DNA of 21,109 nucleotides from an uncultured Desulfobacterales bacterium (GTDB taxonomy: Bacteria > Desulfobacterota > Desulfobacteria > Desulfobacterales > JAFDCJ01): positions 1-21,109 of the forward strand of contig CALZJV010000171.1 of the NCBI GenBank assembly GCA_945787595.1. The letters run 5' to 3'. Made by a program: the position numbers and the translations under genes. Shown piece after piece: positions 2,257-18,009 of this stretch. The notes beneath the pieces were generated by a model, which was not told the origin of the DNA, did no database searches, and was given only the letters and a program-made list of their open reading frames with translations. How positions within the stretch are numbered: the first letter of the stretch is position 1; the number at the start of each line of letters is the position of its first letter.

Positions 2257-3063
2257 TTAGCTTTGATTTTGCAATTGTTGCTGCAGGTGGGAAAAACTTG
2301 CTGCGGTTAGCTGAAGGTCCAGAACGGCTTCGAACTGCTTTTTTACAGTGGCACTTACTTCATTCATGGACAATTCACCGTCCAGCTCCTGCTGCATGGA
2401 TGTCATGCAGACGCCTTGAAGGCCACAGGGCTGGATATAGGAAAACGGGGTTAAATCGAGATTGACATTTAATGCCATACCATGAAAACTGATGCCTTTT
2501 CGAATGGCAAGGCCGATACTGCCCATTTTGTTATTGCCGACCCAGATTCCACGGTTGGCGGGGTTACGTTCTGCTGCAATGCCCCAGGTTCGGACCGTGG
2601 CAAGCATGATGTCTTCCAATATTTCGACAAAATCGACGACACCGAAGCTGCGTGCTTTCAGGTCCACAATGGGATAGGCGACCATCTGGCCGGGGCCGTG
2701 AAACGTGATATCTCCGCCGCGTTCGACATGCACAATGGGGATACCGGCGGTCTTTAGAAATTCCTCGGACACCAACAGATGCTCCAGGCCGCCGCGGCGA
2801 CCCAGGGTGAAAACGGTAGGATGTTCCAGAAACAGGATGATATCCGTATCAATGATTCCGTTGATCCGGGCGGCAACGATGTCACTTTGAAGCTTCCATG
2901 CTTCCTTGTAATCCATCAGGCCCAGGTCGACGGCGTAACATGTAGGCAGGTCGGTTGTGTGTTGATCGTTGTCCGTTGTGAAAACGCCTTTAACCGCCGA
3001 TTGATGATCTAAGTTGTCGGGATTTATTTTACCAGGCATTGTTGTCATTGTTATTTTCGTCAT
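2257..3063 (-). CDS. lipB: Octanoyltransferase LipB, start uncertain
   Basis: Transfers octanoate from acyl carrier protein to the lipoyl domain lysine, the first step of lipoate assembly. Numbering from the ATG at 3063: RGGDITFHGPGQ with H122, NNKMGSIG with catalytic K179, and IQPCGL with catalytic C213. At 268 residues it is about 45 residues longer than usual. Homology-like sequence begins near CYAVDLGLMDYKEAW (residue 42 on); the preceding residues (for example TDNDQHTTD) are encoded by a 7-bp tandem array. In-frame ATGs lie at 3063, 3048 and 3039; none has a clear Shine-Dalgarno sequence. No ATG, GTG or TTG falls between 3039 and the conserved part, only a CTG at residue 39. The function is firm but the N-terminus is not. 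Confidence 0.92.
   Translation of the reverse strand: MTKITMTTMPGKINPDNLDHQSAVKGVFTTDNDQHTTDLPTCYAVDLGLMDYKEAWKLQSDIVAARINGIIDTDIILFLEHPTVFTLGRRGGLEHLLVSEEFLKTAGIPIVHVERGGDITFHGPGQMVAYPIVDLKARSFGVVDFVEILEDIMLATVRTWGIAAERNPANRGIWVGNNKMGSIGLAIRKGISFHGMALNVNLDLTPFSYIQPCGLQGVCMTSMQQELDGELSMNEVSATVKKQFEAVLDLQLTAASFSHLQQQLQNQS
2950..2979. repeat. Degenerate 7-bp array inside the lipB 5' end
   Basis: On the minus strand the units read ACAACGG, ACAACGA, TCAACAC, ACAACCG. Their period matches the arrays found between genes elsewhere in the window. It codes for the low-complexity part of the lipB N-terminal extension, which suggests that intergenic-type sequence has been taken into the reading frame or that the real start lies downstream. 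Confidence 0.55.
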
Positions 3064-3145
3064 TCGAATTTGTTTCGTGCTTCGGATTTCGGTTTTAAAT
3101 GGTCGAGCAAATTGTCTTCGCCCCCTTCCAGGGGACTTCCTTAGG

Positions 3146-3164
3146 CCTCCCGTACCACGGGAGG
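3146..3164. repeat. Perfect 8-bp-arm hairpin upstream of lipB
   Basis: CCTCCCGT (3146-3153) and ACGGGAGG (3157-3164) form a perfect stem with a three-base loop. It lies in the gap between gcvPB and lipB, about 80 bases before the annotated lipB start. No U-tract follows on either strand, so a structural or mRNA-processing role is more likely than termination. Confidence 0.55.
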
Positions 3165-3225
3165 AGCGTTCACGCTACCGTTCTTTCATCATTCATTCTG
3201 CCTTGGGGCGGATCATTCCGCATTC

Positions 3226-3266
3226 CCTCCGGGGCGTAGGCCCCTATGGTCCCTACGGGCCGGAGG
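3226..3266. repeat. Short palindrome, copy B
   Basis: Left arm CCTCCGGGGCGTAGG (3226-3240) pairs with CCTACGGGCCGGAGG (3252-3266) except for two central bases; the loop is 11 bases. It has the same core as copy A at 2135-2161 and a similar flank. It lies just downstream of the gcvPB stop. No U-tract is present. Confidence 0.65.
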
Positions 3267-3269
3267 CCG

Positions 3270-3297
3270 CATTCGTCCTTCATCCTTCACCTCATCC
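3270..3297. repeat. 7-bp array at the gcvPB stop codon
   Basis: On the minus strand the gcvPB stop (TGA at 3294-3292) sits at the start of a short array with unit TGAAGGA twice, then CGAATGC. The array begins at the end of the coding sequence and runs into the palindrome at 3226-3266. The same arrangement is seen at livM and the two binding-protein genes. Confidence 0.55.
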
Positions 3298-4749
3298 TCT
3301 CAAACACGGCTTACGGGCAGCCGCCGTCTCATCCAGTCTTCTTCGACGGCATTTTTTCGGCGCCGCATGCAAGAGCTGCGGGTTTTCCTTGGCTTCTGCC
3401 GCAATGGACTTTATGGATTCGATGAAAAGATCGATGTCTTCTTTGGATTCGGTTTCCGTGGGCTCGATCATGATGGCTCCCGGAACCACCAGCGGAAAGT
3501 AAATGGTGGGCGGATGAAATCCATAGTCCATCAGCCGTTTGACGATGTCCAGAGTGGTTACTTTGTGCGCCTGCTGTCGCTTGTCGGAAAATACGCACTC
3601 ATGCATGCAGGGGCGATCATAGGGCAGGTGAAAGGTTCCCTTCAATCGTTCTTTGATGTAATTGGCGTTTAAGACCGCCAGTTGGCTGACTTTCTTCAGA
3701 TTTTTAGCACCCATACTTAAAATGTAACTGTAGGCCCTTATCTGAACGCCGACATTGCCGTAAAAGGCATGAAGCTTTCCGATGGATTCGGGAAAATTTT
3801 CTGAAAGAAGATAGCGGCCTTTCTTTTCAACGACACGGGGTACCGGTAAAAAAGGTGCCAGTTGATTCTTGACACAGACCGGACCTGATCCCGGCCCACC
3901 CCCGCCGTGGGGCGTTGAAAAAGTCTTGTGAAGATTTAGGTGAAGCACATCAATGCCGATTTCGCCCATGTGAACGATACCCATGACGGCATTCATGTTG
4001 GCCCCATCGCCATAAACAAGACCGCCTTTGGCATGCACGATGTCGGCAATTTTTTTAATGTTATCCTCAAACAGCCCCAGGGTGTTGGGATTGGTTACCA
4101 TGATGCCGGCGGTTTCTTCATCCATGACGTCGGCCACATCTTCAGGCGCCAGGACCCCTTTTTCATTGGATTTTATGGGTACCGGCCGGTATCCGCACAG
4201 AGCGGCACTGGCCGGATTGGTTCCATGGGCCGTATCCGGCACAATGATCTTTGAGCGCGGCGCCCCTTGACTCTGATGATACGCATAAAATAGAAGCATC
4301 CCGGTAAGCTCTCCGTGGGCGCCGGCGGCCGGCTGAATGGTGGCGGCGTCCATGCCGGTGATCTCCACCAGGAAGCGTTCAAGATCATACATGAGTTTGA
4401 GGATGCCCTGGGATAGATTCGGCGGAAGCATGGGGTGTGCTGCGGCAAATCCCGGCTGGGCGGCCTGTCTTTCATTGGTTTTAGGGTTATATTTCATCGT
4501 ACAGGAGCCCAGGGGATACATACCGCTGTCCACCGCGAAATTCCATTGGGACAAACGGGTATAATGGCGGACGATATCTACCTCGCTGAGGTCAGGAAAA
4601 TTGGGGCCTTCTCCAAGCAAATCTTCAGCTACAGGATAGGACTCAATGTCTCGTCGCGGCAGAGAAAATCCGCATCTTCCCTCTTTTCCTTTTTCCCAGA
4701 GCAGTGGTTCATTGAGTATCAGGCCGGTGGTGCCTGGATATTCTTTCAT
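3292..4749 (-). CDS. gcvPB: Glycine dehydrogenase (decarboxylating) subunit 2
   Basis: PLP-binding half of the two-subunit P-protein. With GcvPA it decarboxylates glycine and passes the aminomethyl group to lipoyl-GcvH. The internal aldimine lysine is in LNLHKTFSTPHGGGGPGSGP, K275 of 485 residues. SCTMKYNPK and DTAHGTNPASA are also typical of the family. The start at 4749 is chosen because GGGAGGTC sits just upstream; a longer frame back to 4815 adds 22 residues with no such site. The C-terminus keeps RRLDETAAARKP, but the segment before it (PKKCRR) differs from the usual TTPVRR, and the last codons run into a 7-bp array, so the end may be slightly altered. It follows gcvPA after a 168-bp gap. 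Confidence 0.96.
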   Translation of the reverse strand: MKEYPGTTGLILNEPLLWEKGKEGRCGFSLPRRDIESYPVAEDLLGEGPNFPDLSEVDIVRHYTRLSQWNFAVDSGMYPLGSCTMKYNPKTNERQAAQPGFAAAHPMLPPNLSQGILKLMYDLERFLVEITGMDAATIQPAAGAHGELTGMLLFYAYHQSQGAPRSKIIVPDTAHGTNPASAALCGYRPVPIKSNEKGVLAPEDVADVMDEETAGIMVTNPNTLGLFEDNIKKIADIVHAKGGLVYGDGANMNAVMGIVHMGEIGIDVLHLNLHKTFSTPHGGGGPGSGPVCVKNQLAPFLPVPRVVEKKGRYLLSENFPESIGKLHAFYGNVGVQIRAYSYILSMGAKNLKKVSQLAVLNANYIKERLKGTFHLPYDRPCMHECVFSDKRQQAHKVTTLDIVKRLMDYGFHPPTIYFPLVVPGAIMIEPTETESKEDIDLFIESIKSIAAEAKENPQLLHAAPKKCRRRRLDETAAARKPCLRG

Positions 4750-4830
4750 GTTTTGACCTCCCAACCAGCATAAACTGGATATTTGAAAGTTCGTAATCAT
4801 TAGCCACAAAGACACGAAGGCACAAAAAAG

Positions 4831-4914
4831 GTGTCAGGTTTCAGGTGTCAGTGTTCAGGTTTCAGGATTTTCCAACTCGCCTTCCTGACACCCGAAACCT
4901 GACACCTGAAACCT
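4831..4914. repeat. Inverted pair of 7-bp arrays between gcvPA and gcvPB
   Basis: Units GTGTCAG and GTTTCAG alternate from 4831 to 4866; their reverse complements (CTGACAC, CTGAAAC) run from 4884 to 4914. The 31-bp arms 4836-4866 and 4884-4914 are nearly complementary around a 17-base loop, giving a long imperfect hairpin. The right end lies four bases from the gcvPA stop. The same units recur at 7839-7996. Confidence 0.85.
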
Positions 4915-4917
4915 ATA

Positions 4918-6246
4918 CTATTTTATTTTTTCTACCAATTCGTCCATATCTTCTTTGCTGATGGTTTCCGTGACACACAGCAGATAATGATTGGCCAGTT
5001 CAGGATAATAACATTCCAGCGGTAAACCGGCGATGATTTTATCGGCGATCAGGCCTTCATGGGTTTTTAAAGAGCCTTCGCCGAAATCAACGACAAATTC
5101 ATTAAATGTCGGTTGTTCAAATGGGATGGCAAATCCGGCGCGGCGCAGCTCTGCCTTGAGGTATTCGCACTTGTCGTAATTCAGCCGCGCCAGTTCTTTT
5201 ATGCCGGATCCGCCCAGGGCGGACATGTACATGGCCGATGCCAGGGCACACAAGCTGTGGTTGGTACAGATGTTGGATGTGGCTTTTTCTCGGCGAATAT
5301 GTTGTTCGCGGGTAGCCAGGGTCAACACAAAACCGCGTTTTCCGTCCGCATCAACGGTTTGGCCCACCAACCGTCCCGGCATGTTGCGGACATATTTCAT
5401 CCGGGCGGCAAACATACCCAAGGCCGGTCCGCCGAAGGAGCGTGGTATTCCCAGACTTTGGCCTTCTCCGGCCACGATGTCGGCGCCTTGGCTGCCGGGA
5501 TTCTTCATCATGCCGTAAGCAAGGGGCTCGCTGAAACCTACAACAGCGAGCGCCTTTCTTTGCCGGGCGATGTCCCCCATGGTCTTAAGATTTTCAATGC
5601 AGCCGAAAAAATTGGGAGACTGAACAGCCACCGCTGCCAGATCATCCAGACCGTCGAGAGGAGTCGGATCGGTGGTACCGTCCGGCAGATAGGGAAGTTC
5701 CACGATCTCATAGCCGGTAGGGGCAAGATATGTTTTGATCACCCGGCGATAATTCGGATGGAGCAATCTTGATACCGCTACAGTTTTTTTCCGTGAAATT
5801 CGTATGGCCATCAACAGGGCTTCCGCCAGGGCGGAAGCACCGTCGTACTGTGAGGCATTTGCCACTTCCATGCCGAGCAGCCGGGCGGTCAGGGTCTGAT
5901 ATTCAAAAATGGCCTGCAAGGTTCCCTGGCTCATTTCCGGCTGATAAGGGGTATAGGACGTCACGAATTCCGAGCGGCCCAGTAGATGCTTTAGGGACGC
6001 CGGAATATAATGCTCATAGCTGCCGGCACCCATAAACACTTTGTATGCGGGCGAGACCGCCATGCTGCTGCAAAGCGTGTCGATGTGCTCGTCTAATTCC
6101 CATTCGGTCAAAGCCTCCGGCAGGTTAAGCTCGCAGTTGCAGTGGCAATCGTCGGGTATGGTTTCAAAAAGATCGTCCAGGGACTTCACACCCACCGTCC
6201 TCATCATCTCATCGATATCCTCTGATGTATGCGGCAAGTATCGCAT
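4918..6246 (-). CDS. gcvPA: Glycine dehydrogenase (decarboxylating) subunit 1
   Basis: N-terminal-type half of the split P-protein of the glycine cleavage system, acting with GcvPB. At 442 residues it has the usual subunit 1 length. Recognisable stretches are RYLPHTSEDI at the start, GAGSYEHYIPASLKHLLGRSEF, SYTPYQPEMSQGTLQAIFEYQT and the C-terminal TNHSLCALASAMYMS. The ATG at 6246 has AAAGGA eight bases upstream. It starts five bases after the gcvH stop, so the two genes are almost certainly cotranscribed. The pair GcvPA/GcvPB, rather than one fused GcvP, is common in anaerobes. No disruption is seen. Confidence 0.96.
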   Translation of the reverse strand: MRYLPHTSEDIDEMMRTVGVKSLDDLFETIPDDCHCNCELNLPEALTEWELDEHIDTLCSSMAVSPAYKVFMGAGSYEHYIPASLKHLLGRSEFVTSYTPYQPEMSQGTLQAIFEYQTLTARLLGMEVANASQYDGASALAEALLMAIRISRKKTVAVSRLLHPNYRRVIKTYLAPTGYEIVELPYLPDGTTDPTPLDGLDDLAAVAVQSPNFFGCIENLKTMGDIARQRKALAVVGFSEPLAYGMMKNPGSQGADIVAGEGQSLGIPRSFGGPALGMFAARMKYVRNMPGRLVGQTVDADGKRGFVLTLATREQHIRREKATSNICTNHSLCALASAMYMSALGGSGIKELARLNYDKCEYLKAELRRAGFAIPFEQPTFNEFVVDFGEGSLKTHEGLIADKIIAGLPLECYYPELANHYLLCVTETISKEDMDELVEKIK

Positions 6247-6251
6247 AATTA

Positions 6252-6650: not shown

Positions 6651-6745
6651 CGCTCCTCCTTAAGGGTTGTTTAGCGTTCATTTAAAAATGACTGTTTTCT
6701 CCAAATTCTGCAGCAGAGGATTCGGCTGGCGGATCGTTTTACTTG

Positions 6746-6758: not shown

Positions 6759-6783
6759 ATCTCAATTCTGAACGGATGCTACA

Positions 6784-6926
6784 TAGTTTCCATCCATAAA
6801 TGGTCTTTTTGCCCAATCTCGGCGTCAATCGTCGCGATTGTTTGTGCGACGTAGCCTGCTACGTCTCCGCACAACCGCTTGATTTCCTTGATCTTGAATA
6901 AAAATCCGCATTTCTGGATTGGAAAC
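6784..6926. repeat. Dispersed repeat, full copy with terminal inverted repeats
   Basis: A non-coding element whose first 98 bases (6784-6881) match 11003-11100 with four mismatches. The ends are inverted: GTTTCCATCCA (6786-6796) and TGGATTGGAAAC (6915-6926), differing by one extra base. An internal stem pairs GTGCG..ACGTAGC with GCTACGT..CCGCAC around 6844-6872. No reading frame is present, so it resembles a MITE or a REP-like element rather than an autonomous insertion sequence. Confidence 0.8.
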
Positions 6927-6933
6927 ACTATTG

Positions 6934-6973
6934 AGTGCCCAAACTGATTTTAACCGATTTATAGATGGGCACT
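6934..6973. repeat. Inverted repeat downstream of the Lrp-like gene
   Basis: AGTGCCCA (6934-6941) and TGGGCACT (6966-6973) are perfect complements separated by 24 bases. It lies 22 bases past the stop of the Lrp-like gene in its transcription direction. No U-tract follows, so it is a weak terminator candidate at best. Confidence 0.4.
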
Positions 6974-7826: not shown

Positions 7827-7838
7827 ATAGAAACTTTA

Positions 7839-7996
7839 AGGTTTCAGGTGTCGGGTGTCAGGTTTCAGCAAAATCGCTGGCCACCGAAGCGGTCAGTTTG
7901 ATCGAAAAAGAGACTTCGGCTTTGTGGAGTTTCATGTAAGGCATCAAATGAACTAAATTCTGACACCTGACACCTGACACCCGACACCTGAAACCT
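7839..7996. repeat. Inverted pair of 7-bp arrays in the importer leader
   Basis: The left arm (7839-7868) and the outer 30 bases of the right arm (7967-7996) are reverse complements at about 28 of 30 positions. The right arm carries one more unit, starting at 7960. Units are GTTTCAG/GTGTCAG and their complements, as at 4831-4914. The unrelated sequence between the arms has no convincing gene. Confidence 0.8.
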
Positions 7997-8132
7997 CTAT
8001 TTTGTGATATTTAATTATCAACGTGCTTGTTGCCCCAAAGGAGCCACTTTTTTCGAGCGCAGTCTCGGAAAAAGCTGAGTGTCTTATTGGCTGAACTATA
8101 CCATTGGCGGTAACAAAAAAAAGGGGACAGTT

Positions 8133-9311
8133 ATGAAGGGAAAGTGGTTAAATGTAGCGATTATTGCGTCCTTTATCGTTGGGCTGGTGTTCTCTGCCTG
8201 CGGCACCAAGGAGCCTGAACCTATTAAAATCGGAATCAACGCACCGCTCACGGGGGACATTCCCAAGGTGGGTGAGGGCACCAAGTTCGCCGCCCGGATG
8301 TGGCTGGAAGATGTCAATGCGGCCGGCGGCATTGACATCGGTGGCAAAAAAAATAAGGTGGAGCTGATTATTGAAGACAACGAATCCAAGGCCGAGTCAG
8401 CCGTTAAGGCCAATACAAAGCTTATTACCGAGGATGAAGTTCTGGCCATTATCGGACCTCAGTCCTCAAAGCAGGCGGTGCCTGCCGGCGCTAAAGCCAA
8501 TGAGCTGGGCACCCCGATGATCAGCCCCTGGTCGACCAATCCCAATACGACCAGGGACCGCCCTTTTGTGTTTCGGGGCTGCTTTCTGGATCCGTTTCAG
8601 GGGCCGGTCGCGGCCAAGTTTGCCAAAAATGAATACGGTTTCACCAAAGCGGCCGTTCTCTACGATGTGGCCAGTGATTATCCGAAGGGATTGGCTGAAT
8701 TTTTCAAAGCGGCATGGGAAGACTTAAACGGTGCCGGCTCGGTCGTGGCCTATGAAAGTTTCACCACCAAAGACGCCGATTTCAGCTCCCAGCTTACCAA
8801 AATAATCAGCTCCGGCGCTGAATTCATGTTTACGCCCCAATATTACAACGAAGTGGCCTTAATCGTTCAGCAGGCCCATCAGTTGGGCTGGGATAAACCG
8901 ATTGTGGGCAGCGACAGCTGGGGTTCGGCCGAAACCGTCAAGCTCTGCGGCAAAGACTGCTATGGCTTATTTTTCAGTACTCATTATGCCGCCGCCGGCG
9001 CCAAAGGTGCAGCCGCTGAATTTATCAATCGCTATAAGAAAGCGCATGGCTATGCGCCCGATGATGTGGCCGCCCTGACCTGGGATTCCATGCATATCGT
9101 TCAAAAAGCGATCGAAGGGGTCGCTGCGCTTAGCGGTGATATCAAGAAGGATCGCAAGGCTGTACGCGATGCCCTGGCCGCAATTAAAGACTTCGACGGA
9201 ATTACGGGCGGCATGACCTTTACCGAGGATGGCGATCCCATCAAGTGTGCCGTCATCGTACGCATCAGCGATGCCGGTGAGTTTGAATTCTATAAATCCG
9301 TCTGTCCGTGA
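8133..9311 (+). CDS. Branched-chain-type amino-acid binding lipoprotein
   Basis: Substrate-binding protein of a LIV/HAAT-type ABC importer (type I periplasmic-binding fold, Peripla_BP_6). The ATG at 8133 is preferred because AAGGGGAC precedes it; the frame extends upstream to 8079 without such a site. The N-terminus is a lipoprotein signal with lipobox FSAC and lipidated C23, so the mature protein should be membrane-anchored. The mature part begins EPIKIGINAPLTGDIPKVGEGT and continues through GPQSSKQAVPAG and GSDSWGSAETVKLCGKDC. The 392 residues match the family. It is the intact member of a tandem pair with the gene at 9752. Specificity cannot be read from sequence; leucine, isoleucine, valine or another amino acid are candidates. 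Confidence 0.92.
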   Translation: MKGKWLNVAIIASFIVGLVFSACGTKEPEPIKIGINAPLTGDIPKVGEGTKFAARMWLEDVNAAGGIDIGGKKNKVELIIEDNESKAESAVKANTKLITEDEVLAIIGPQSSKQAVPAGAKANELGTPMISPWSTNPNTTRDRPFVFRGCFLDPFQGPVAAKFAKNEYGFTKAAVLYDVASDYPKGLAEFFKAAWEDLNGAGSVVAYESFTTKDADFSSQLTKIISSGAEFMFTPQYYNEVALIVQQAHQLGWDKPIVGSDSWGSAETVKLCGKDCYGLFFSTHYAAAGAKGAAAEFINRYKKAHGYAPDDVAALTWDSMHIVQKAIEGVAALSGDIKKDRKAVRDALAAIKDFDGITGGMTFTEDGDPIKCAVIVRISDAGEFEFYKSVCP

Positions 9312-9386
9312 GCCGGTTGGCCCGTTGAGCCGGTTTATCCGTTATCCCGTTGGCCGGTTGAGCCGGTGGGCCTGTTGGCCGGTGTC
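9308..9386. repeat. 8-9-bp tandem array at the first binding-protein stop
   Basis: About nine units such as GTTGGCCC, GTTGAGCCG and GTTTATCC begin at the stop codon itself (the TGA is part of a GTGAGCCG unit). A related shorter array follows the second binding-protein gene at 10826-10880, and an inverted partner array lies at 9537-9600. Confidence 0.8.
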
Positions 9387-9536
9387 TCAGATCGGCATGG
9401 GACCTGATTGCAGAAGTGACTAATTCGATTTTTTCGTTCCGTCGCTTTAGGTTGGAAACTAAATGACACGCTTCGCATTTTTTTGCGTTGATGGGGTTTG
9501 TCACGATCCGCCGCGTCTGGCTTGCGCTAACCGCAT

Positions 9537-9600
9537 CCGGCCAACGGGCTTACCGGCTCAACCGGCTCAACGGGCCAACCGGCCAACCGACCAACCGCAT
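9537..9600. repeat. Inverted partner of the 8-9-bp array
   Basis: Units such as CGGCTCAAC, CGGCCAAC and GGGCCAAC are reverse complements of the units at 9308-9386. The two arrays bracket about 150 bases without a gene, so the intergenic RNA or DNA could fold into a very large hairpin. The rest of the gap to 9751 contains a TATAAT at 9722-9727 without a clear -35. Confidence 0.75.
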
Positions 9601-9751: not shown

Positions 9752-10829
9752 ATGATGAAAAGAACATTACTCGTGGTAACGATCATTTCCTTTTTTATCG
9801 GGGGATTGGGGGTTTGTGGTTCTGTTATCGCTGCAGAAACCATCAGAATCGGGGTCAACGCACCGCTTACCGGCGATATTCCCAAGGTGGGTGAAGGCAC
9901 CAAATTCGCCGCTCAGATGTGGCTGGAAGATGTCAATGCAGCCGGCGGCATTGAGGTCGGTGGCAAGAAATACAAGGTAGAGCTGATTATTGAAGACAAT
10001 GAATCCAAAGCCGAATCAGCCGTTAAAGCCAACACAAAGCTGATTACCGAGGAAGATGTCCTGGCAATTGTCGGTCCTCAGTCCTCGAAACAAGCGATTC
10101 CCGCGGGCGGTAAAGCCAATGAACTGGGCACACCGATGGTCAGCCCCTGGTCGACCAATCCCGACACCACCAAAGATCGTCCTTTTGTGTTTCGCGGCTG
10201 CTTTCTGGATCCGTTTCAGGGGCCGGTGGTTGCAAAATTTATCAAAAATGAGTTCGGTTTCAAAAAGGCTGCCGTTCTTTATGACGTTGCCAGTGACTAT
10301 CCCAAGGGGCTGGCCGAATTTTTTAAGGCGGCCTGGGAAGATCTGAACGGTCCCGGCTCGGTTGTGGCCTACGAAAGTTTCACCACCAAAGACGCCGACT
10401 TCAGCTCCCAGCTGACGAAAATCAATAACTCCGGAGCTGAAGTGCTGTTTACCCCACAGTATTACAACGAAGTGGCCTTAATCGTTCAGCAGGCCCACCA
10501 GTTGGGCTGGAACAAACCGATTGTGGGCAGCGATAGCTGGGGTTCGGCTGAGACCGTAAAACTCTGCGGCAAAGACTGCTATGGCCTGTTTTTCAGCACC
10601 CATTATGCGGCGGCAGGAGCCAAAGGCGCCACGAAGGCCTTTATCGATCGTTATGCCAAAGAGCACGGCTATGTGCCGGATGACGTGGCTCCTGGCCACC
10701 ATTAAAGACTTTGACGGCATTACTGGCGGCATGACATTTACCCAGGATGGCGATCCGATCAAATGTGCCGTCATCGTACGTATCAGCGATGCCGGGGAAT
10801 TCGAATTCTTTAAATCCGTCTGTCCGTAA
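9752..10829 (+). pseudogene. Second binding-protein gene, frameshifted by a ~101-bp deletion
   Basis: A close paralogue of the gene at 8133 (roughly nine residues in ten identical by eye over the shared part). AAAGGAGG precedes ATGATG at 9752/9755. Its signal peptide differs: MMKRTLLVVTIISFFIGGLG then SVIAAE, suggesting signal peptidase I cleavage and a soluble periplasmic protein. Both copies agree up to PDDVA; here the next bases join directly to sequence equivalent to position 9173 of the first gene, losing 9072-9172. This shifts the frame and gives a stop after VAPGHH at 10705 (317 residues). The lost C-terminus, ATIKDFDGITGG to FFKSVCP, is intact in another frame and ends at 10829. The product lacks about 75 residues and is probably non-functional, although a truncated secreted protein is possible. 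Confidence 0.85.
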
Positions 10830-10880
10830 TCCGGTTGAGCCCGTTGAGCCGGTTGTACCGTTGACCGGTGTATCCGATCG
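10826..10880. repeat. 8-9-bp array after the second binding-protein gene
   Basis: Units GTTGAGCCC, GTTGAGCCG, GTTGTACC and GTTGACCG begin at the original stop (TAA at 10827-10829). The flank GATCGGCAT after the array matches that after the array of the first gene, so the duplication included the array and the two copies then diverged in unit number. Confidence 0.75.
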
Positions 10881-11002
10881 GCATTCAAGTTGTTTGCAGT
10901 AGTTGTCTACTGACAGAGAACTGCGAAGCTTTTCCTAACTCTAAAATGAAACAATAGTGAGGCGGGCCTGAGCCTATTCACTCTGAGCTCGCCTTGCTAA
11001 AC

Positions 11003-11100
11003 TAGTTTCCATCCATAAATGGTCTTTTTGCCCAATCTCGGCGTCAATCGGCGCGTTTGTTTGTGCGACGTAGCCAGCTACGTCTCCGCACAAACGCTTG
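11003..11100. repeat. Dispersed repeat, partial copy
   Basis: It matches 6784-6881 over 98 bases with four mismatches and no gaps, in the same orientation. It stops matching after CGCTTG, so the right terminal inverted repeat present in the first copy is missing. It lies about 175 bases upstream of livH in a gap otherwise without genes. Confidence 0.85.
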
Positions 11101-12196: not shown

Positions 12197-12203
12197 TTGG
12201 AAT

Positions 12204-12231
12204 AACGAATGACGGATGACGAATGACGAAG
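12204..12231. repeat. 7-bp array after the livH stop
   Basis: Units AACGAAT, GACGGAT, GACGAAT and GACGAAG, starting seven bases past the livH stop. The same unit follows livM (13887-13914). Confidence 0.8.
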
Positions 12232-12250
12232 TAAAGTACTACCTGGCATT

Positions 12251-12278
12251 GAATATTGAAAATTGAAGAATGAATATT
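12251..12278. repeat. 7-bp array, GAATATT type
   Basis: Units GAATATT, GAAAATT, GAAGAAT and GAATATT in exact 7-bp register. The consensus differs from the array 20 bases upstream. Confidence 0.7.
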
Positions 12279-12423
12279 TGTGGATGTCGCTTCGCTCCGT
12301 CTTTTAAAATGGAAAGAATTCATTAAATACAAAATCGTTACAAGACAGTGAATATATCTGAATACTTTTCTTTACCACGAATAATGCAACAAAATAAGGG
12401 CCTAACCCGGAACGACACGCAAT

Positions 12424-12509
12424 GCAGGGCATAAGGCACAGGGTGTTGGGGAAAATGTAAACTATTTATGTCATCTGACTTCTGACTTCTGTCATCTGAT
12501 TGATGACGG
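12424..12509. repeat. Two adjacent 7-bp arrays before livM
   Basis: Units GCAGGGC, ATAAGGC, ACAGGGT, GTTGGGG cover 12424-12451. A different array, ATGTCAT, CTGACTT, CTGACTT, CTGTCAT, CTGATTG, ATGACGG, covers 12468-12509. Each keeps a strict 7-bp period. Together with the arrays at 12204 and 12251 they fill much of the 388-bp livH-livM gap; no gene was found there. Confidence 0.75.
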
Positions 12510-12584: not shown

Positions 12585-13886
12585 ATGGAATTAACGAGCG
12601 AAGGGATGTCAACCGACAAGAGACAGATTTCAAGCCAAATCCGGGTTTTTTTTGCCCAGATCCCCCTGCTCAGTTGGCTGCTGGGCGCACTGGTTGCGGT
12701 GGCGCTGGAATATTTCATCGGCACGCCCTTTGCCCGTACTTTGGGCTTGCGTAAAGCGCCGATGCTTTTCGGATTTGTTATCATGCTCAAAAAACCGGCC
12801 TTGATACACAGTGCTGTGCTGTATTTCGTGCTGATTTATTTATTACCGATCGGTGTGATTGCACGGTTGAGTGCAGCGAGCATGAACCGGCTGGCTGCCA
12901 AACTTCTCGATTTTCCTCTGATGCTCTCAGTTTTCATTCATCTGGGTGTGCTTTACGTAATTTTGCACTGGTGGTCGGACATGACCCTCTATCGGGCAGA
13001 TGTCCTCAGATTTACCATGATAGCCGTTCTGCTGACATTGAGTTTGAACATTATCAACGGCTACATGGGCGAATTTTCATGTTCGCACCCGGGATTTATG
13101 GCTATAGGGGCTTATGCCTCCTCGGTTTTTACCGTCGGCCTGTTTGCCGATGACAGACTTTTCGGAACGGCCCTGCTTCCTCAATGGATCGGTCCTTTCT
13201 TTTTCCCCATTGCTTTAATCGTGGGCGGAGTGGTTGCAGCCATTGGCGCCTTGGCGGTGGCCATTCCTTCTTTCAGAACAAGGGGGGATTACCTGGCCAT
13301 TATTTCACTGGCGTTTATGTTCATTGTAAAAAGTCTGATCGAGAATCTCGAATTTGTGGGGGGCCCCCGTGGATTGGGCGATCAGCCCGATTGGGCCAAT
13401 CGACCGGTGGTCTTCGCAACCGTTGTGCTCGGCATATGGATCATCAATAATTTTGTGCGCTCCACGCTGGGCAAAGCCTTGAATGCGGTACGTGACAATG
13501 AAATGGCTGCGGATGCCATGACCGTAAACACCCGGCGCACCAAAATTACGGCATTTTTGTTCGCTGCCTTTTGGGCCGGCGTTGCCGGTGGATTGTACGC
13601 CCACGTCCTGCGATACGTGAATCCGGGAACCTTCGGTATCCAGAAACTGGCCGAGGTTCTGGCAATGGTCTATTTCGGCGGGCTGAACTCTGTATACGGT
13701 TCCATCGTTGGTGCCTGCAGTATCAGCCTGCTCGGTGAGATCCTGCGACCGCTGGAACTTTTTAAATGGATCATCATTCCATTGCTTTTGATACTGGTAA
13801 TGATTTATCGCCCGACAGGCCTGATCGCATTCAAGGAATTTGACGTTAAAAAATTAATTCAGCCGAGAAAGAAACAACCTAAATGA
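12585..13886 (+). CDS. livM: Branched-chain amino-acid ABC permease LivM-like
   Basis: Second permease of the importer, partner of LivH. The 433 residues include an N-terminal extension with extra hydrophobic segments (about residues 27-150) before the conserved core, as in the longer LivM proteins. Core stretches are LSLNIINGYMGEFSCSHPGFMAIGAYAS, the RGDYLAIISLAF region, the ATPase-contacting loop LGKALNAVRDNEMAADAMTVN (about 300-320) and MIYRPTGLI near the end. AAGGA is six bases before the ATG at 12585; an alternative ATG at 12606 has no properly spaced site. The stop codon lies inside the first unit of a 7-bp array. The usual NxRTGRA-type core is conserved in general form, with no frameshift seen. 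Confidence 0.94.
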   Translation: MELTSEGMSTDKRQISSQIRVFFAQIPLLSWLLGALVAVALEYFIGTPFARTLGLRKAPMLFGFVIMLKKPALIHSAVLYFVLIYLLPIGVIARLSAASMNRLAAKLLDFPLMLSVFIHLGVLYVILHWWSDMTLYRADVLRFTMIAVLLTLSLNIINGYMGEFSCSHPGFMAIGAYASSVFTVGLFADDRLFGTALLPQWIGPFFFPIALIVGGVVAAIGALAVAIPSFRTRGDYLAIISLAFMFIVKSLIENLEFVGGPRGLGDQPDWANRPVVFATVVLGIWIINNFVRSTLGKALNAVRDNEMAADAMTVNTRRTKITAFLFAAFWAGVAGGLYAHVLRYVNPGTFGIQKLAEVLAMVYFGGLNSVYGSIVGACSISLLGEILRPLELFKWIIIPLLLILVMIYRPTGLIAFKEFDVKKLIQPRKKQPK

Positions 13887-13914
13887 ATGACGAATGACGA
13901 TTGACGAATGACGA
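13887..13914. repeat. 7-bp array starting at the livM stop
   Basis: Units ATGACGA, ATGACGA, TTGACGA, ATGACGA; the stop TGA at 13884-13886 is in phase with the array. An inverted partial partner (TCATTCGTCAATCATC) lies at 14121-14136, near the livG start, so the two could pair across the gap. Confidence 0.8.
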
Positions 13915-14039
13915 AATAAGGAATTTTATCAAAAAGGGTACGAGACTAATTAGTACCTATTTATTCAAATGCCATCATGTTTGCGCATGATTTATGATGC
14001 ATTGGTAGATTGTGACCTTTGCAAAGCGCTTCGGCTAAA

Positions 14040-14067
14040 GATTGACAATTTTCGATTGCAGATTGAA
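14040..14067. repeat. 7-bp array, GATTGNN type
   Basis: Units GATTGAC, AATTTTC, GATTGCA, GATTGAA. One unit departs from the consensus, but the period is kept. It lies between the inverted GACGAAT arrays in the livM-livG gap. Confidence 0.5.
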
Positions 14068-14145
14068 GGAATGCTGTCGATCAGAATAAAAAAGACAGAG
14101 CGTAGCGATACCACAAATCTTCATTCGTCAATCATCTATTTGGTT

Positions 14146-14158
14146 CCGGCTTCGCCGG
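14146..14158. repeat. Small GC-rich hairpin before livG
   Basis: CCGGC and GCCGG form a perfect stem with loop TTC, ending 14 bases before the livG start. It sits where the ribosome-binding site should be (only a weak TTAGG follows), so it could affect livG translation. Confidence 0.4.
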
Positions 14159-14172
14159 GTTAGGTATATCAC

Positions 14173-14943
14173 ATGTCAATGCTTCAAATTGAAAAAATGA
14201 CGCATTATTTCGGTGGATTAAGGGCCGTTTACAATTATGGACTTGAAATCAACCCCGGCCAGATTCGGGGGCTGATCGGTCCCAATGGTGCCGGCAAAAC
14301 AACCATCTTTAACCTCATTACCGGTATCTACCAGCCCACAGAAGGAACCATTTCCCTAGCAGGTGATAAATTAAACGGACGCTCGCCCCACGAGATTGCC
14401 TCCCTGGGAATCGGCCGGACATTTCAAAATATGCTTTTGTGGCGGCATATGACAGTACTGGAACATGTGAAAATGGCCCGTTATTCCAGACTTACTTATG
14501 GCCTGATCGGAGCATTTTTCGGTACGGCAAAACGTCACAAGGAAGAGGCCGAAAGTGAAGAGAAAGCCTATTATCTCTTAAAAATGATGGGGGTGGATCA
14601 GTTTGCAGATCAGATCGTACTCAACCTGGCATACGGCGCCCAGCGAAGAGTGGAAATGGCGCGGGCATTGGCGATGGAACCTAAGGTCCTATTTTTGGAT
14701 GAACCCACAGCCGGTATGAACCCGGAGGAACTGGTTCAGATGATGGATATTATCCGTAAGATCCATGGCGAATTGGGCCTGGCCATTTTTCTCATCGAGC
14801 ACCGTATGAAAGTGGTCATGGAGCTATGTCAGAGAATTCAGACCCTGGTCTTCGGCGAGGTGATTGCCGAGGGTACCCCGGAAGAAATCCAGAGCAACCC
14901 CAGTGTGATCGATGCTTATCTGGGCAAGGAGATGGTTGAATAA
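14173..14943 (+). CDS. livG: Branched-chain amino-acid ABC ATPase LivG-like
   Basis: One of the two nucleotide-binding subunits energising the LIV-type importer at the inner face of the membrane. 256 residues. Walker A GPNGAGKTT at residues 36-44, signature LAYGAQRRVEMARALA (the LivG variant of LSGGQ), Walker B VLFLDEP, and H-loop in FLIEHRM. The C-terminal FGEVIAEGTPEEIQSNPSVIDAYLG is typical of the LivG/LivF group. The start at 14173 has only a weak ribosome-binding site. Its TAA stop overlaps the livF ATG by one base (TAATG), implying coupled translation. The 286-bp gap before it contains only repeats. Confidence 0.95.
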   Translation: MSMLQIEKMTHYFGGLRAVYNYGLEINPGQIRGLIGPNGAGKTTIFNLITGIYQPTEGTISLAGDKLNGRSPHEIASLGIGRTFQNMLLWRHMTVLEHVKMARYSRLTYGLIGAFFGTAKRHKEEAESEEKAYYLLKMMGVDQFADQIVLNLAYGAQRRVEMARALAMEPKVLFLDEPTAGMNPEELVQMMDIIRKIHGELGLAIFLIEHRMKVVMELCQRIQTLVFGEVIAEGTPEEIQSNPSVIDAYLGKEMVE

Positions 14944-15656
14944 TGTTACTATCGGTTGAGGATCTGAGGGTATCGTACGGCAACATTAAAGCGTTGCACG
15001 GACTTAATTTTCAAATCGACGAAGGGGAGATTGTTTGCATCATCGGCGCCAACGGCGCCGGCAAAAGCACCACGCTAAAGGCAATTTCCCGTATGGTTCC
15101 GGTTGAAGCGGGGTCGAAGATGACTTATGCGGGCAATGACTTGCTGGGGTACCCCGCCGATAAAGTCGTGAGCGAACTGGGGATTTCCCATGTGCCGGAG
15201 GGCAGACGCTTATTTGAAAATCTGACGATTACCGAAAACCTTAAACTGGCCACTTTTGCCAGGAAAGATAAGGATCAGATTCAACGGGATGTCAAGCGAG
15301 TTTTTTCCATTTTTCCGCGGTTAGAGGAACGTCAAAGCCAGAAATCCGGCACATTAAGCGGCGGTGAGCAGCAGATGCTGGCTGTGGGCAGAGCCTACAT
15401 GAGCGGACGTAAGGTCATGCTGCTGGATGAACCCTCCATGGGGCTGGCTCCATTGCTAATGATGAGCATGTTCGATGCACTAAAGGAAATCAACCAGGAA
15501 GGCACTACGATTCTATTGGTGGAACAAAATGCCCGGATGGCGTTGCAATTTGCCCAACGGGGGTATGTGCTGGAAAACGGCCACATGGTGGTGGAGGGAC
15601 CTTCCGATGAACTGTTGGAAAATCCGGAGGTCAAAAAAGCGTATTTGGGTGGCTGA
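14943..15656 (+). CDS. livF: Branched-chain amino-acid ABC ATPase LivF-like
   Basis: Second ATPase of the importer. 237 residues, the normal LivF length. Walker A GANGAGKST at residues 35-43, signature LSGGEQQMLAVGRA, Walker B VMLLDEP followed by SMGLAPLL, and H-loop region LLVEQNARMAL in which Gln replaces the usual His, as is common in LivF. Start overlaps the livG stop by one base, with AAGGAG 11 bases upstream. It ends the plus-strand importer cluster; the next gene is convergent and stops 47 bases away. No clear intrinsic terminator was seen between them. Confidence 0.95.
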   Translation: MLLSVEDLRVSYGNIKALHGLNFQIDEGEIVCIIGANGAGKSTTLKAISRMVPVEAGSKMTYAGNDLLGYPADKVVSELGISHVPEGRRLFENLTITENLKLATFARKDKDQIQRDVKRVFSIFPRLEERQSQKSGTLSGGEQQMLAVGRAYMSGRKVMLLDEPSMGLAPLLMMSMFDALKEINQEGTTILLVEQNARMALQFAQRGYVLENGHMVVEGPSDELLENPEVKKAYLGG

Positions 15657-15703
15657 TTTGGATGGAGGGCAGTGTGATTGAAAAAATACCTTTCATACAC
15701 GCC

Positions 15704-16082
15704 TCAACTTTTAATCTCGAAAAGATTGCCATCATCATCTGAAATAAATGTAAGCAGTTTATCCTCTTTCGGTACCTGAACGATTTTGACCCGCAAAGTG
15801 CGGCACTTTTCGAGAAAAGTTGCAAGATCGTCGACTTCGAGACAAACATGTTCGATTCGCCTGACACTGCTTTTGCTAGGACTATCAAAGAATATCTCAA
15901 AATGAAGATATTCATTGCGATAGTTAATGATTTCTAATTCGGAATTAATGTCGAACAGGGCTTTTGAAAGGGCAGGGGGAATTGTTTTCGGCTCCGATTT
16001 TTGCAGCCCTAACAGGCCTTTTGTAGAATTTATCCGATTTTTCCTCTGAGCTGCAGGTCAGCGCTAGGTGTCGTAATATCAT
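15704..16082 (-). pseudogene. VOC/glyoxalase-fold protein gene split by one extra base
   Basis: Read with one frame change, the minus strand encodes a 125-residue single-domain VOC protein. The first frame gives MILRHLALTCSSEEKSDKFYK from an ATG at 16082 preceded by AGGGGGGTGG. The second gives GLLGLQKSEP onward to IEHVCLEVDDLATFLEKC and DDDGNLFEIKS, ending at TGA (15706-15704). The switch falls in an A4 run at 16022-16019; removing one A restores a single frame, and the total of 379 bases is 126 codons plus one. Likely metal ligands H5, E62, H78 and E122 (corrected numbering) are all kept, so selection acted until recently. It may be a pseudogene, a sequencing error or a slippage site. The enzyme's substrate is unknown. 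Confidence 0.75.
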
Positions 16083-16251
16083 TGAACCACCCCCCTTTTT
16101 TTACCAGATTTGCCTGTCGTTGCGACGAATTCAGGTGTTTAAATGTGTTTTACAGTTCGAAGGCATTCTGTTAGGCAGAACTTCATGTTCTTTGCGCCGT
16201 TCGGAAGAAAAAATTTCGTTGAAAATCCAACTAACCATTTTAACGCGCAGC

Positions 16252-16629
16252 TTAATATCTTTCACGGTAGGAGGTCCACGCAATCTCGTTTTCCCAGATT
16301 TTAACCGTCAATGCGTCTAAATTGCTTGGTTTAATTTTAGCGGAGATGGCCTTTAAAAAAATTCTGCAAAAATGCTCGATACTGGGGTTCAGACCTTTGA
16401 ACTCTGCCAACTCGTTTAAGATTTGATCCTTGAAATATTCGACGAGCTCCTCCAGATTGGTTTCAAGATCCACAATGTCGACGATATATCCATGTCGGTC
16501 AAGTTTCGGGGCCTCCAGGATAACCTCCACACGGTAGTGGTGAGAATGTCGGCGATTCTCCGGGCCCCAGTCTCCCCCGATAAGATAATGCGAGGCAATG
16601 AAGTCTCTTTGGACTGCGAGGGTATACAT
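16252..16629 (-). CDS. PTPS/QueD-family protein, PTPS-III-like (Cys replaced by Glu)
   Basis: A 125-residue tunnelling-fold protein of the 6-pyruvoyl-tetrahydropterin synthase/QueD family, acting on 7,8-dihydroneopterin triphosphate-type pterins. Zinc ligands H14 (FIASHYL), H28 and H30 (RRHSHHYRV) are present, as is a C-terminal Glu, E113 (VKIWENE), in the position of the pterin anchor. The catalytic Cys expected four residues before the second zinc His (C-x3-H-x-H) is E24 here (PENRRHSH). A Glu at this site is the hallmark of PTPS-III, which forms 6-hydroxymethyl-dihydropterin and can replace FolB in folate synthesis; a queuosine role would need the Cys. Start ATG at 16629 with GGAGC just upstream. 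It lies after the DUF4340 gene and before the VOC gene, on the same strand. Confidence 0.82.
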   Translation of the reverse strand: MYTLAVQRDFIASHYLIGGDWGPENRRHSHHYRVEVILEAPKLDRHGYIVDIVDLETNLEELVEYFKDQILNELAEFKGLNPSIEHFCRIFLKAISAKIKPSNLDALTVKIWENEIAWTSYRERY

Positions 16630-16673
16630 ATTTGCTCCGCGCTAATAGTTTAATAGAGAAGTTATGATCACAA

Positions 16674-17696
16674 TTACTCTTTTTGCGGCTTGGATTGCGG
16701 CTTTTGCAGCTCGGATGTTTCTGCCTCCGTTTCAGGCTCTTTCAGGATATTTGACGAGTCTTTCATAATGCCTTGGGCTTCGCTGTCCTGCAATAGGAAG
16801 GCATACTTGCTTGCCGAGGAAATTGCCGGATGTTTCGTTTCTTTCTCTTCGGTTTTACCGAATATGGAAAGGCTGTGTTCCAGCGAGCCTTTGAGCTGAA
16901 TGTTGATCAGGGGGGTAGTAAAATCTTCTTTGCCACGGTCTTCGATGAATGCTTCGCAGCTCAGGTCGGAAAGCTTGTTGAGAAGTTGGTCCACCGCAGC
17001 TTCATCGACGATGCGGCCATCCGGAGTTTGCCATACGGTCTCTTGGGCCACAGGCGAAACGCTTTCTTTTTTGTCGGCTGTTGGGGGTTCTTCTTTTTCG
17101 GGCAGCTGGGTCCGGTTTAACATAAAAGAATGCTTCTCATTCGTGATCTGTATCTGCTGAATGTCCGAGGGGGTGTAAGTCAATATGGTCTTATCCCTGA
17201 GATCGTCCACAGTGGTATCGAAAGTGCTTCTGAAATTTCCCCGGGCATGATAGACCCTGTCGTCGCCGGCCGGTTTTACGAAGGTGTGGCGAAAGGATGA
17301 GGCCGTCTTGCCCACATCAATGTCCCGCCTCAAACTGTCTCCCTGCCAGGCTTTAACGTTTATCTTTGTTTCTGCGGCAAGATCATAGAGGTTATAATTT
17401 TTGGACTCCGAAACCAGCGCCGTCAAGGTGAGTTTCTCGATGGTGTCCAACATATTTTTAACCTTGTCGGCATCGGCCGGATAATCCTTGGGCTCGATGT
17501 GCCAGCTGTTATCTTTTTTGTTGAGATCGATGGTGGTTTTGCCACTGGTGATCTCGAGCCTGGTGATTTCTTTTTGAGAAACTTGCGGCATTTCCGGCAG
17601 TTCGTAAAGGGTTCGATCGCCGCGGCGCATGACCAGATACACCGACAAGGCAATGATAATAGTAGCCAGTATGATATATTCTTTTTTAATCTTCAT
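16674..17696 (-). CDS. DUF4340 membrane-anchored protein of a Gld-like ABC cluster
   Basis: Unknown function. 340 residues: a short basic N-terminus, one membrane segment (about residues 8-23) and a large presumably periplasmic domain with repeated beta-rich stretches, as in DUF4340 proteins (EITRLEITSGKTTIDLNKKDNSWHIEPKDYPADADKV is characteristic in pattern). DUF4340 genes often follow GldG-like genes, as here. The C-terminal third is low in complexity and rich in Glu, Lys, Pro and Gln, ending ETSELQKPQSKPQKE. The ATG at 17696 has a weak upstream site (AGGGAAAAATAGAAG). It is separated from the GldG-like gene by 345 bp of repeat arrays. A role as an accessory of the ABC exporter is inferred from position only. 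Confidence 0.8.
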   Translation of the reverse strand: MKIKKEYIILATIIIALSVYLVMRRGDRTLYELPEMPQVSQKEITRLEITSGKTTIDLNKKDNSWHIEPKDYPADADKVKNMLDTIEKLTLTALVSESKNYNLYDLAAETKINVKAWQGDSLRRDIDVGKTASSFRHTFVKPAGDDRVYHARGNFRSTFDTTVDDLRDKTILTYTPSDIQQIQITNEKHSFMLNRTQLPEKEEPPTADKKESVSPVAQETVWQTPDGRIVDEAAVDQLLNKLSDLSCEAFIEDRGKEDFTTPLINIQLKGSLEHSLSIFGKTEEKETKHPAISSASKYAFLLQDSEAQGIMKDSSNILKEPETEAETSELQKPQSKPQKE

Positions 17697-17715
17697 CTTC
17701 TATTTTTCCCTAATA

Positions 17716-17815
17716 ACCCGTGACTCGATACTCGATAATGAAATCTCAATGCATGATAAATATAAACGCCAGCATGCCGCCAACTCTCTGCCCTATGCGC
17801 TATGCCCATTCACCC
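17716..17815. repeat. Two short 7-bp arrays upstream of the DUF4340 gene
   Basis: Units ACCCGTG, ACTCGAT, ACTCGAT cover 17716-17736. Units CTGCCCT, ATGCGCT, ATGCCCA, TTCACCC cover 17788-17815. They occupy the 345-bp gap between the GldG-like and DUF4340 genes, in which no gene was found. Confidence 0.6.
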
Positions 17816-17827
17816 GCCACCCGATGG

Positions 17828-17883
17828 CAGAAAACAGAGGACAGATTACAGAATACAGAGGACAGATGCCGGAAATCAGATTG
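17828..17883. repeat. Longest 7-bp array, eight CAGANNN-type units
   Basis: Eight consecutive units begin CAGA (or CGGA once): CAGAAAA, CAGAGGA, CAGATTA, CAGAATA, CAGAGGA and so on, with no phase slip. The first three or four bases of each unit are conserved and the rest vary. Confidence 0.85.
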
Positions 17884-17967
17884 CATAGATAGTTCATCCC
17901 CGCTACCCCGTATCTAAAAAATTCAATGAACTTCAAGTCCTCTCATTCTGCGCATAAAATCTAATCA

Positions 17968-18009
17968 ATCCAAAATCCAAAATCTGGAATCCGCAATCGA
18001 AAATCCCGT
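17968..18009. repeat. 7-bp array downstream of the GldG-like gene
   Basis: Six units begin ATC: ATCCAAA, ATCCAAA, ATCTGGA, ATCCGCA, ATCGAAA, ATCCCGT. It lies 33 bases past the stop of the GldG-like gene. Confidence 0.8.

Follow-up and report, generated by a model that had tools for sequence, protein, structure and literature searches.

The window analysed here, that is, the whole stretch of 21,109 nucleotides (contig CALZJV010000171.1 of assembly GCA_945787595.1, positions 1 to 21,109 of the forward strand), comes from an uncultured Desulfobacterales bacterium. Reading of its open reading frames suggests lipA/lipB-like genes, genes for glycine cleavage and genes for branched-chain amino-acid transport, and the gaps between genes contain short tandem arrays with a period of 7 bp. 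These arrays are very probably the terminal inverted repeats of small insertion elements built around one gene of the PF05635 family, together with shorter, gene-less copies of such elements. PF05635 is the 23S_rRNA_IVP/S23 family (hereafter IVP), a four-helix-bundle protein of about 120 residues.

The initial annotation had claimed a shared 7-bp period in most gaps, and this period is real. In the non-coding DNA of the window, the lag-7 match fraction is 0.303 versus 0.256 in 100 dinucleotide shuffles (z 7.4). Counting periodic stretches, defined as at least 15 of 21 matches at a given lag, yields 135 at lag 7 (shuffle mean 0.15, maximum 5) versus 0, 18 and 26 at lags 6, 8 and 9, respectively; lags 14 and 21 yield 55 and 44. 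Coding DNA of the window contains no lag-7 periodic stretches. Tandem Repeats Finder (TRF) likewise recovers distinct period-7 arrays with units unlike one another. The claim of one shared period needs amendment: lag 7 dominates, but one family in the same gaps has a period of 8/9 (CCGGTTGAGCC, at 9305-9383, 9552-9597 and 10831-10860). Nine of the 11 unit types claimed were recovered by a looser detector, whereas the GCAGGGC-like (about 12420) and GATTGNN (about 14040) types were not. Among the 16 stretches listed by this detector, 2210-2234 and 2954-2979, the latter within a gene, look like chance. Nor are all arrays independent of one another: in the pairs 4829/4884, 7835/7960 and 9305/9552, two arms in inverted orientation complement each other and form a hairpin. 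The array-bearing features of the window include the following.

4829 to 4914, plus strand: gene-less hairpin element detected by TRF, with a left arm of GTGTCAG/GTTTCAG units (4829-4866), a 17-bp loop and a right arm (4884-4914); RNA fold -45.6 kcal/mol, z -7.9.
7835 to 7996, plus strand: gene-less element with a left arm (7835-7868), an inner X repeat (about 7869-7935) and a right arm of GTGTCAG units (7960-7996); RNA fold -76.6 kcal/mol, z -9.7.
9305 to 9597, plus strand: gene-less element detected by TRF, with period 8/9 arms (CCGGTTGGCCGGTTGAGCC), left 9305-9383 and right 9552-9597; RNA fold z -8.3.
10831 to 10860, plus strand: an additional arm, again of the period-9 type, located after the second substrate-binding gene.
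12248 to 12326, plus strand: eroded gene-less element packing a GAATATT arm (12248-12278), a left sub-terminal motif (12280-12301) and a right sub-terminal motif (12312-12325) into 79 bp.
13885 to 14136, plus strand: gene-less element detected by TRF directly 3' of the permease gene, with a GAATGAC arm (13885-13915), a sub-terminal motif (13917-13930) and a partial right arm (about 14119-14136); RNA fold z -2.9, both ends paired.

Among the genomes compared, the closest by the permease (12585-13883) are titled Desulfosarcina sp. (locus L003, 92%), Desulfobacterales (L002, 88%) and Olavius-associated delta symbiont (L001, 88%). The genome of L002, designated G002, is rich in similar arrays. Our sample of it (contigs C1-C20, 338 kb, not randomly drawn) contains 160 period-7 arrays with 68 canonical units. 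The comparison of lag 7 with lags 6, 8 and 9 that the initial annotation had asked for was run on this relative: the non-coding part gives 1399 periodic stretches at lag 7 versus 0, 129 and 142 at lags 6, 8 and 9, and the non-coding part of a single shuffle gives none at any of the four lags. A further 192 at lag 7 fell in regions called coding by a crude open reading frame picker; with an improved gene caller, 153 of the 160 arrays are mostly non-coding. In relatives other than G002 period-7 arrays are scarcer. The complete chromosome G004, sampled as 20 evenly spaced stretches (400 kb), contains 45, and 25 of 39 relatives contain none in the 7 to 20 kb sampled from each (G023, with 520 bases, was left out). 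The sample of G010 was built around pattern matches and is thus biased. Such scarcity in several relatives argues against an explanation in which polymerase slippage with a preferred 7-nt step makes arrays in any gap and IVP genes merely happen to be located there. A step of this size was nevertheless proposed earlier on the grounds that 7 nt is the stretch contacting the polymerase (cited in PMC4679880).

Genes of the IVP family are present in 47 of 58 relatives, in 44 of them above the curated cut-off. Fifteen additional genomes, among them ones labelled Nitrospirae, Methylomirabilis, Chloroflexi or Spirochaetes, were searched; 13 matched and provided 30 loci. These were combined with a first set of 30 loci and 60 hand-chosen matches, and removal of identical proteins left 119, of which 114 had usable flanks. 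The first 30 IVP loci contain 75 period-7 arrays in 92.7 kb, many immediately before and after the gene, compared with 22 in 118 kb at 30 loci of the LivM permease and five in 87.5 kb at 30 loci of the Y1 transposase. Within the 300-bp flanks of the 114 IVP genes, period 7 is found in 79 cases (57 on both sides), period 8 in 22 (12) and period 9 in 11 (7), versus 7, 3 and 4 in shuffled flanks (5 x 114). Period 12 is found in five, and periods 4-6, 10, 11 and 13 in at most four each. When a single period is assigned to each gene, 78 have period 7, 15 period 8 and eight period 9, four have other values and nine have none.

Complementary inverted arms flank 74 of the 114 IVP genes, 72 of them with period 7-9, whereas the same test retrieves 7 of 212 control genes in the array-rich G002, none of 299 in G004, 6 of 220 in the biased sample of G010 and 1 of 501 in stretches from 40 relatives. 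A stricter version of the test gives 71 of 114 versus 4/212, 0/299, 5/220 and 0/501. Mere proximity of any period 7-9 array separates the classes less sharply (101/114 for IVP versus 129/212, 57/299, 133/220 and 71/501), and an array near most genes of G002 is compatible with slippage; inverted arms at 74 of 114 IVP genes, versus only 7 of 212 controls in that genome, count against it. The arms are locus-specific, since an arm matches its own partner in 25 of 27 cases and arms of foreign loci in 45 of 702. Median arm length is 4.7 units, and the elements measure 525 bp from arm to arm (median; 5-95% range 432-694). What the arms enclose at the IVP loci examined is a PF05635 gene and not a transposase. 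Another possibility is that the arrays are repetitive extragenic palindromic (REP) or bacterial interspersed mosaic element (BIME)-like sequences spread by a Y1 transposase of the REP-associated tyrosine transposase (RAYT) type, with IVP genes as passengers. Hairpin form, intergenic position and nesting are similar, and Y1 matches are found in 52 of the 58 relatives. However, the Y1 loci are array-poor, Y1 copy number is uncorrelated with array density (Spearman 0.13, p 0.42) and the arms follow the IVP protein. A Y1 transposase flanked by repeats, as in REP/BIME systems, is thus not what these loci display; Y1 as the driver was rejected, and we consider this scenario scarcely credible.

Period and unit both track the IVP protein. 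In a tree of IVP proteins built with a quick method from 105 columns, the period changes 13 times, whereas 500 label shuffles averaged 22.0 changes and never gave fewer than 16; for genes with inverted arms alone there are 10 changes versus a shuffled mean of 14.4 and minimum of 11. Among pairs with the same period, arms are similar in 76/1979, 37/787, 24/238, 22/72, 15/28 and 25/32 as protein identity climbs from below 30% to above 70%. G exceeds C in the upstream arm in 69 of 72 cases; therefore, arm polarity is set by the gene. The shift to periods 8 and 9 with the IVP clade, and the inheritance of period and unit with the gene family rather than with the host, speak against slippage. There is indirect support for a protein reading a 7-bp register, which the initial annotation had offered as one of two processes, fixed-step slippage being the other: units vary by IVP lineage, the period tracks the IVP tree and arm sequence tracks protein identity. 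In denying that a single element had been copied, the initial annotation was right about the sequences but overlooked that the arrays belong to one class of elements. Two other ideas on array origin were discarded. Mirror copying of an arm into its partner was suggested by 7835/7996, but at p<0.05 unit order is mirrored in only 3 of the 43 pairs at IVP genes and in 1 of the 37 without a gene. Growth of a 7-bp target duplication into an array is ruled out by the inversion of the arms.

Plasmids provide evidence for insertion and erosion. Forty-two plasmid records have an IVP match, 18 of them from Nostoc, one of the genera with known heptamer repeats (PMC4692102). Eighteen loci taken from the 42 records were examined, including two pairs of near-copies; at every one, arrays of period 7 or 8 lie beside the gene, at 15 with clear inverted arms. 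One cyanobacterial plasmid site (site A) was found filled, eroded, gene-less and empty. The element is present in L366 and L365, truncated in L379 and gene-less in L386 (the latter two by eye), and absent from six listed plasmids that are 97.5-97.9% identical, two of which were examined (L377, L378). The insertion has GTAAT on either side, and the empty allele (about 98% identity) has a single GTAAT. At site B, what appears to be the same element family lies at a different place (L380, L381, L384), and the homologues L382 and L383 are without it; a candidate duplication there, TTCTA, is suggestive only.

Unit number can change in a slippage-like way: exactly two units separate the left arms of L365 and L366, and unit number also varies among strains of one rRNA intervening sequence (IVS; PMC4990558). 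Slippage alone is nevertheless insufficient, because it predicts neither inverted complementary arms, nor an intervening gene family, nor whole-element filled and empty alleles. As the sole origin of the arrays we consider it unlikely. A further alternative is that IVP elements are immobile RNA-processing cassettes with IVS-like stems, spread by recombination only. In favour of such cassettes, arms of the same kind are found at L376 on an Azospirillum lipoferum plasmid, where an IVP element with heptad arms lies within what we take to be a 23S rRNA gene. The apparent presence of one element family at two plasmid places, each with empty homologues, and the dispersal of one derivative in G002 (see below) argue otherwise, and we hold immobility to be quite unlikely. 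Several plasmid IVP genes lie inside functional gene groups: between cas6 and cas4 (L359, L373), and, over the loci L359, L367, L373, L360, L366 and L368, between cas6 and cas4, between Cmr2 and Cmr3, between two ribonucleotide-reductase genes or within conjugation gene groups. IVP genes in cas operons have been listed as a function associated with cas loci (PMC3936711); in contrast to that part of the earlier account, the flanking arms of the cas-located genes point to insertion.

Some elements of the window have arms or sub-termini in common with IVP-bearing elements of relatives, as judged by comparing the matches of window arrays to IVP arms with those of 20 column-permuted control libraries. 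Over 28 of 28 positions, and in the order of its variant units, the right arm 4884-4914 equals one arm of L300, an IVP element of G002 (0/20 controls). For element 7835 to 7996, the left arm matches L300 at 28/30 (0/20 controls) and the right arm at 29/30 (1/20). The right arm of 9305 to 9597 matches the IVP arms of L065 (23/27, period 9) and L228 (24/29, period 8), with 0/20 controls each, and the arm copy at 10831 to 10860 matches L228 at 22/24 (0/20 controls). Altogether, the CCGGTTGAGCC arms at 9552, 9563 and 10831 exceed all 20 control libraries; the left piece 9359-9383 is weaker (reached by 2/20). In the eroded element 12248 to 12326 the sub-terminal motif GTGGATGTCGCTTCGCTCCGTC is exactly the same as in L432 of G003, and the IVP-bearing loci L430 (G002) and L307 (G003) have GTGGAATCGCTTCGCTCTG at the corresponding place, within GAATATCG arms. 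A shuffle of the window contains no match to GTGGATGTCGCTTCGCTCCGTC. In the G002, G010 and G004 samples, the left sub-terminal motif is matched 3, 9 and 0 times (3, 7 and 0 beside an array), and never in shuffles. The right motif, which is shorter, is matched 19, 19 and 5 times (11, 15 and 0 beside an array); its counts in shuffles are 5, 2 and 5. On these comparisons, the window is best read as carrying gene-less derivatives of IVP-type elements.

The X repeat of element 7835 to 7996 is also found in L090, L094-L096, L099 and others of G002. It consists of a CTGGCC..GGCCAG hairpin and a GAAACTTCG..CGAAGTTTC hairpin, and its loop carries varied inserts, including ACAGGATTA-type and GCAGAG-type hairpins, with a period near 9. 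At L434 in G003, a gene-less GAATGAC element lies between what read as two ribosomal-protein genes.

Gene-less elements are numerous in relatives. In G002, 49 of the 160 arrays lie no more than 400 bp from a complementary partner in inverted orientation. Once the arrays are masked, the intergenic regions group into dispersed families. A gene-less core of 165 bp has at least 41 matches in G002 (40 of 80 candidates scored; one copy may have been counted as two matches), compared with a single 28-base match in six other genomes. In the 29 copies displayed, AACGTCC/AACATCG units border the left side and, where the right side is displayed, it mostly bears the reverse complement of the left units, sometimes beyond an insert. 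Across 181 loci (2.94 Mb, the biased sample of G010 among them) there are 74 inverted pairs, 58 of them with gaps below 200 bp, too short for the gene. Because short-gap pairs are so many, gene-less copies seem to be far more numerous than gene-bearing ones. Of seven pairs with gaps of 250-500 bp, one contains the IVP gene and six have longest frames of 52-101 codons, for which no Pfam search was made. Gene-less arrays match resident IVP arms at 1.93 per arm in G002 and 3.5 in G010, where the medians with arms of other genomes are 0.16 and 0.38, respectively.

These dispersed copies with a common core are difficult to reconcile with a reading in which the arrays are bound by host regulators, or by a nucleoid protein that has a 7-bp register, and mobility plays no part. 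Heptamer repeats adjacent to start codons were so interpreted in Beggiatoaceae (PMC4679880), and regulators of the Streptomyces antibiotic regulatory protein (SARP) type bind heptameric direct repeats. Against such sites also stand the dozens of unit types in one genome, 68 in the G002 sample, and the array beside the same permease, which is GAATGAC in the window but AAAGG-type in L001 and L002 (the permease neighbourhood being the only one compared). We regard this alternative as very improbable.

The elements resemble several known systems. The 23S rRNA of Coxiella burnetii contains an IVS of 428 nt with an S23/IVP open reading frame; it has heptamer units, GACAGAT, before the S23 start codon, variable in number among strains, and IVSs were suggested earlier to be mobile (PMC4990558). 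Shared with IVSs are a gene of PF05635 type and, enclosing it, terminal inverted repeats that pair into a long stem. The gene between inverted ends is found for the 74 IVP genes of relatives noted above, whereas the window copies are gene-less, and stem-forming ends are found in the four window elements whose folds are listed above. The present elements differ in lying between protein genes, in operons and on plasmids, in that both arms are arrays, in units that vary by lineage, in the existence of periods 8 and 9 and in the many gene-less copies. The window copies sit between protein genes and not in an rRNA gene, and Rfam gave no match in the window, rRNA included; they would thus work like an IVS without being rRNA IVSs. 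Short heptamer repeats are also known in cyanobacteria as short tandemly repeated repetitive (STRR) sequences, and short tandem heptamers in intergenic DNA are what the window contains. In Xanthomonas and Nostoc, heptamers form intergenic arrays with several types per genome and, in Xanthomonas, inverted pairs; that study treats them as simple repeats and G-quadruplexes and reports that association with mobile elements is generally lacking (PMC4692102). The elements are similar to miniature inverted-repeat transposable elements (MITEs) in being short, gene-less, dispersed in many copies, delimited by inverted ends and apparently eroded from a gene-bearing parent, but differ in having ends made of tandem arrays and a parent whose gene is no transposase.

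The mechanism that we envisage is as follows. Each lineage would have its own 7-bp unit, less often one of 8 or 9 bp, which is repeated at the left end and recurs as its reverse complement at the right. Invasion by many lineages would therefore give a genome many consensus sequences with one period. The IVP protein may recognise its own repeated unit and thereby hold the register, gene-less copies may be mobilised in trans, and unit number would drift via slippage or unequal exchange. The RNA hairpin of the arms may be cut by RNase III, which would make insertion into operons bearable; one such element, the rRNA IVS, is cleaved by RNase III in vitro (PMC4990558).

A wider proposal, which we put forward tentatively and regard as doubtful, would identify most heptamer repeats between bacterial genes, in all phyla, as IVP-element ends. 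An IVP oligomer would read the 7-, 8- or 9-nt unit on RNA and hand the RNA to a reverse transcriptase in trans, like its relative Avd, making the element a minimal retroelement with a period fixed by protein geometry. In line with reading on RNA, it is the sense strand that is G-rich in the upstream arm in the 69 of 72 cases mentioned above. The resemblance of PF05635 to the Avd protein of diversity-generating retroelements has been noted (PMC10053308). Heptamer repeats, TAACTGA among them (PMC4679880), are common, and both their commonness and a possible slippage origin are already published (PMC4679880, PMC6344855); in 7006 prokaryotic genomes tandem heptamers were the most abundant intergenic repeats, over a wide range of species, and the survey saw no clear clue to function (PMC6344855). 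The S23/IVP family was described as still functionally uncharacterized in 2024 (PMC11270868), a paper that also treats rRNA insertions, and the relevant part of PMC8700078 lists four helix bundle genes with nothing on repeats. IVS elements in rRNA and heptamer repeats were both already known, and heptamers had been described in one IVS (PMC4990558). The general identity of heptamer arrays with IVP-element ends appears to be new; in the open-licence literature searched we found no link of heptamer arrays in general to IVP genes. If the arrays are IVP-element ends, the abundance of 7-letter repeats between bacterial genes would have a testable answer, with heptamer function open to experiments on a single small protein and a single arm of DNA or RNA. 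The S23/IVP family would gain a role, IVP genes within cas, secretion and ribonucleotide-reductase gene groups would be explained as insertions, and the elements would offer an example of a repeat period inherited with a protein.

Several observations weigh against the identification of the arrays with IVP-element ends. About half of the window arrays lack a specific IVP match. Those at 12200, 12248, 13885 and 17828 and the left arm at 4829 do not exceed permuted controls in their match to IVP arms. The left arm 4829-4866 reaches 26/30 (equalled by 4/20 controls), the arm of 13885 to 14136 reaches 25/30 to L333 (3/20), and the GAATATT arm 12248-12278 itself is not above controls (7/20); apart from 4884 and 7835, the period-7 arrays scored are equalled by 1 to 7 of 20 libraries. 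No IVP gene was found in the window. Most arrays of G002 are unpaired (all but the 49 of 160 with an inverted partner within 400 bp), and its 126 neighbouring pairs include 23 inverted only, 12 direct only and three both. IVP arms of G010 fit the G002 arrays better (2.33 per arm) than do the residents of G002. Nine of the 114 IVP genes are without any array, and in G002 a nearby array is not distinctive (129/212 genes), so that only inverted arms distinguish IVP genes there. The order of variant units is not generally mirrored between arms (the 3 of 43 IVP pairs given above), and many forks of the 105-column IVP tree are unresolved. A clear target-site duplication, GTAAT, was obtained at one site only, with no junction resolved at sites C, D and E. 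Over 40 genomes, IVP genes per Mb and array density away from IVP genes correlate at Spearman 0.28 (p 0.08), and the samples of G019, G044, G042 and G021 (L428, L417, L396, L404) hold period-7 arrays with no PF05635 match.

The remaining arrays of the window are the following.

3071 to 3096, plus strand: weak, degenerate TTCG-type array, found by the looser detector only.
3267 to 3298, minus strand: weak TGAAGGA array, found by TRF (3272-3298, score 33) and the looser detector.
12200 to 12230, plus strand: GAATGAC array (TRF); top IVP arm match 25/31, reached by 6/20 controls.
12469 to 12498, plus strand: CTGACTT/CTGTCAT array (TRF); 25/30 to the IVP arm of L332, 2/20 controls.
17723 to 17737, plus strand: short ACTCGAT array (TRF, looser detector).
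17789 to 17807, minus strand: CTATGCC/CTATGCG array (TRF, looser detector), too short for scoring against controls.
17828 to 17873, plus strand: CAGANNN array (TRF); top IVP arm L215, 33/46, 3/20 controls.
17967 to 18006, minus strand: ATCNNNN array (TRF); 27/32 to the IVP arm of L302 in G002, 2/20 controls.

By eye, the motif of 17789 to 17807 resembles an arm of the IVP locus L306 (G003), and the CAGANNN motif of 17828 to 17873 is found again at the IVP locus L233. The window also contains a dispersed repeat of 106 bp, 94% identical between 6777-6881 and 10995-11100; its core (GCGACGTAGCC.GCTACGTC) is palindromic, and heptad arms were not seen. The gene for the branched-chain amino-acid substrate-binding protein is present in tandem (8079-9311 and 9752-10829), the second copy being in two frames, split near 10690.

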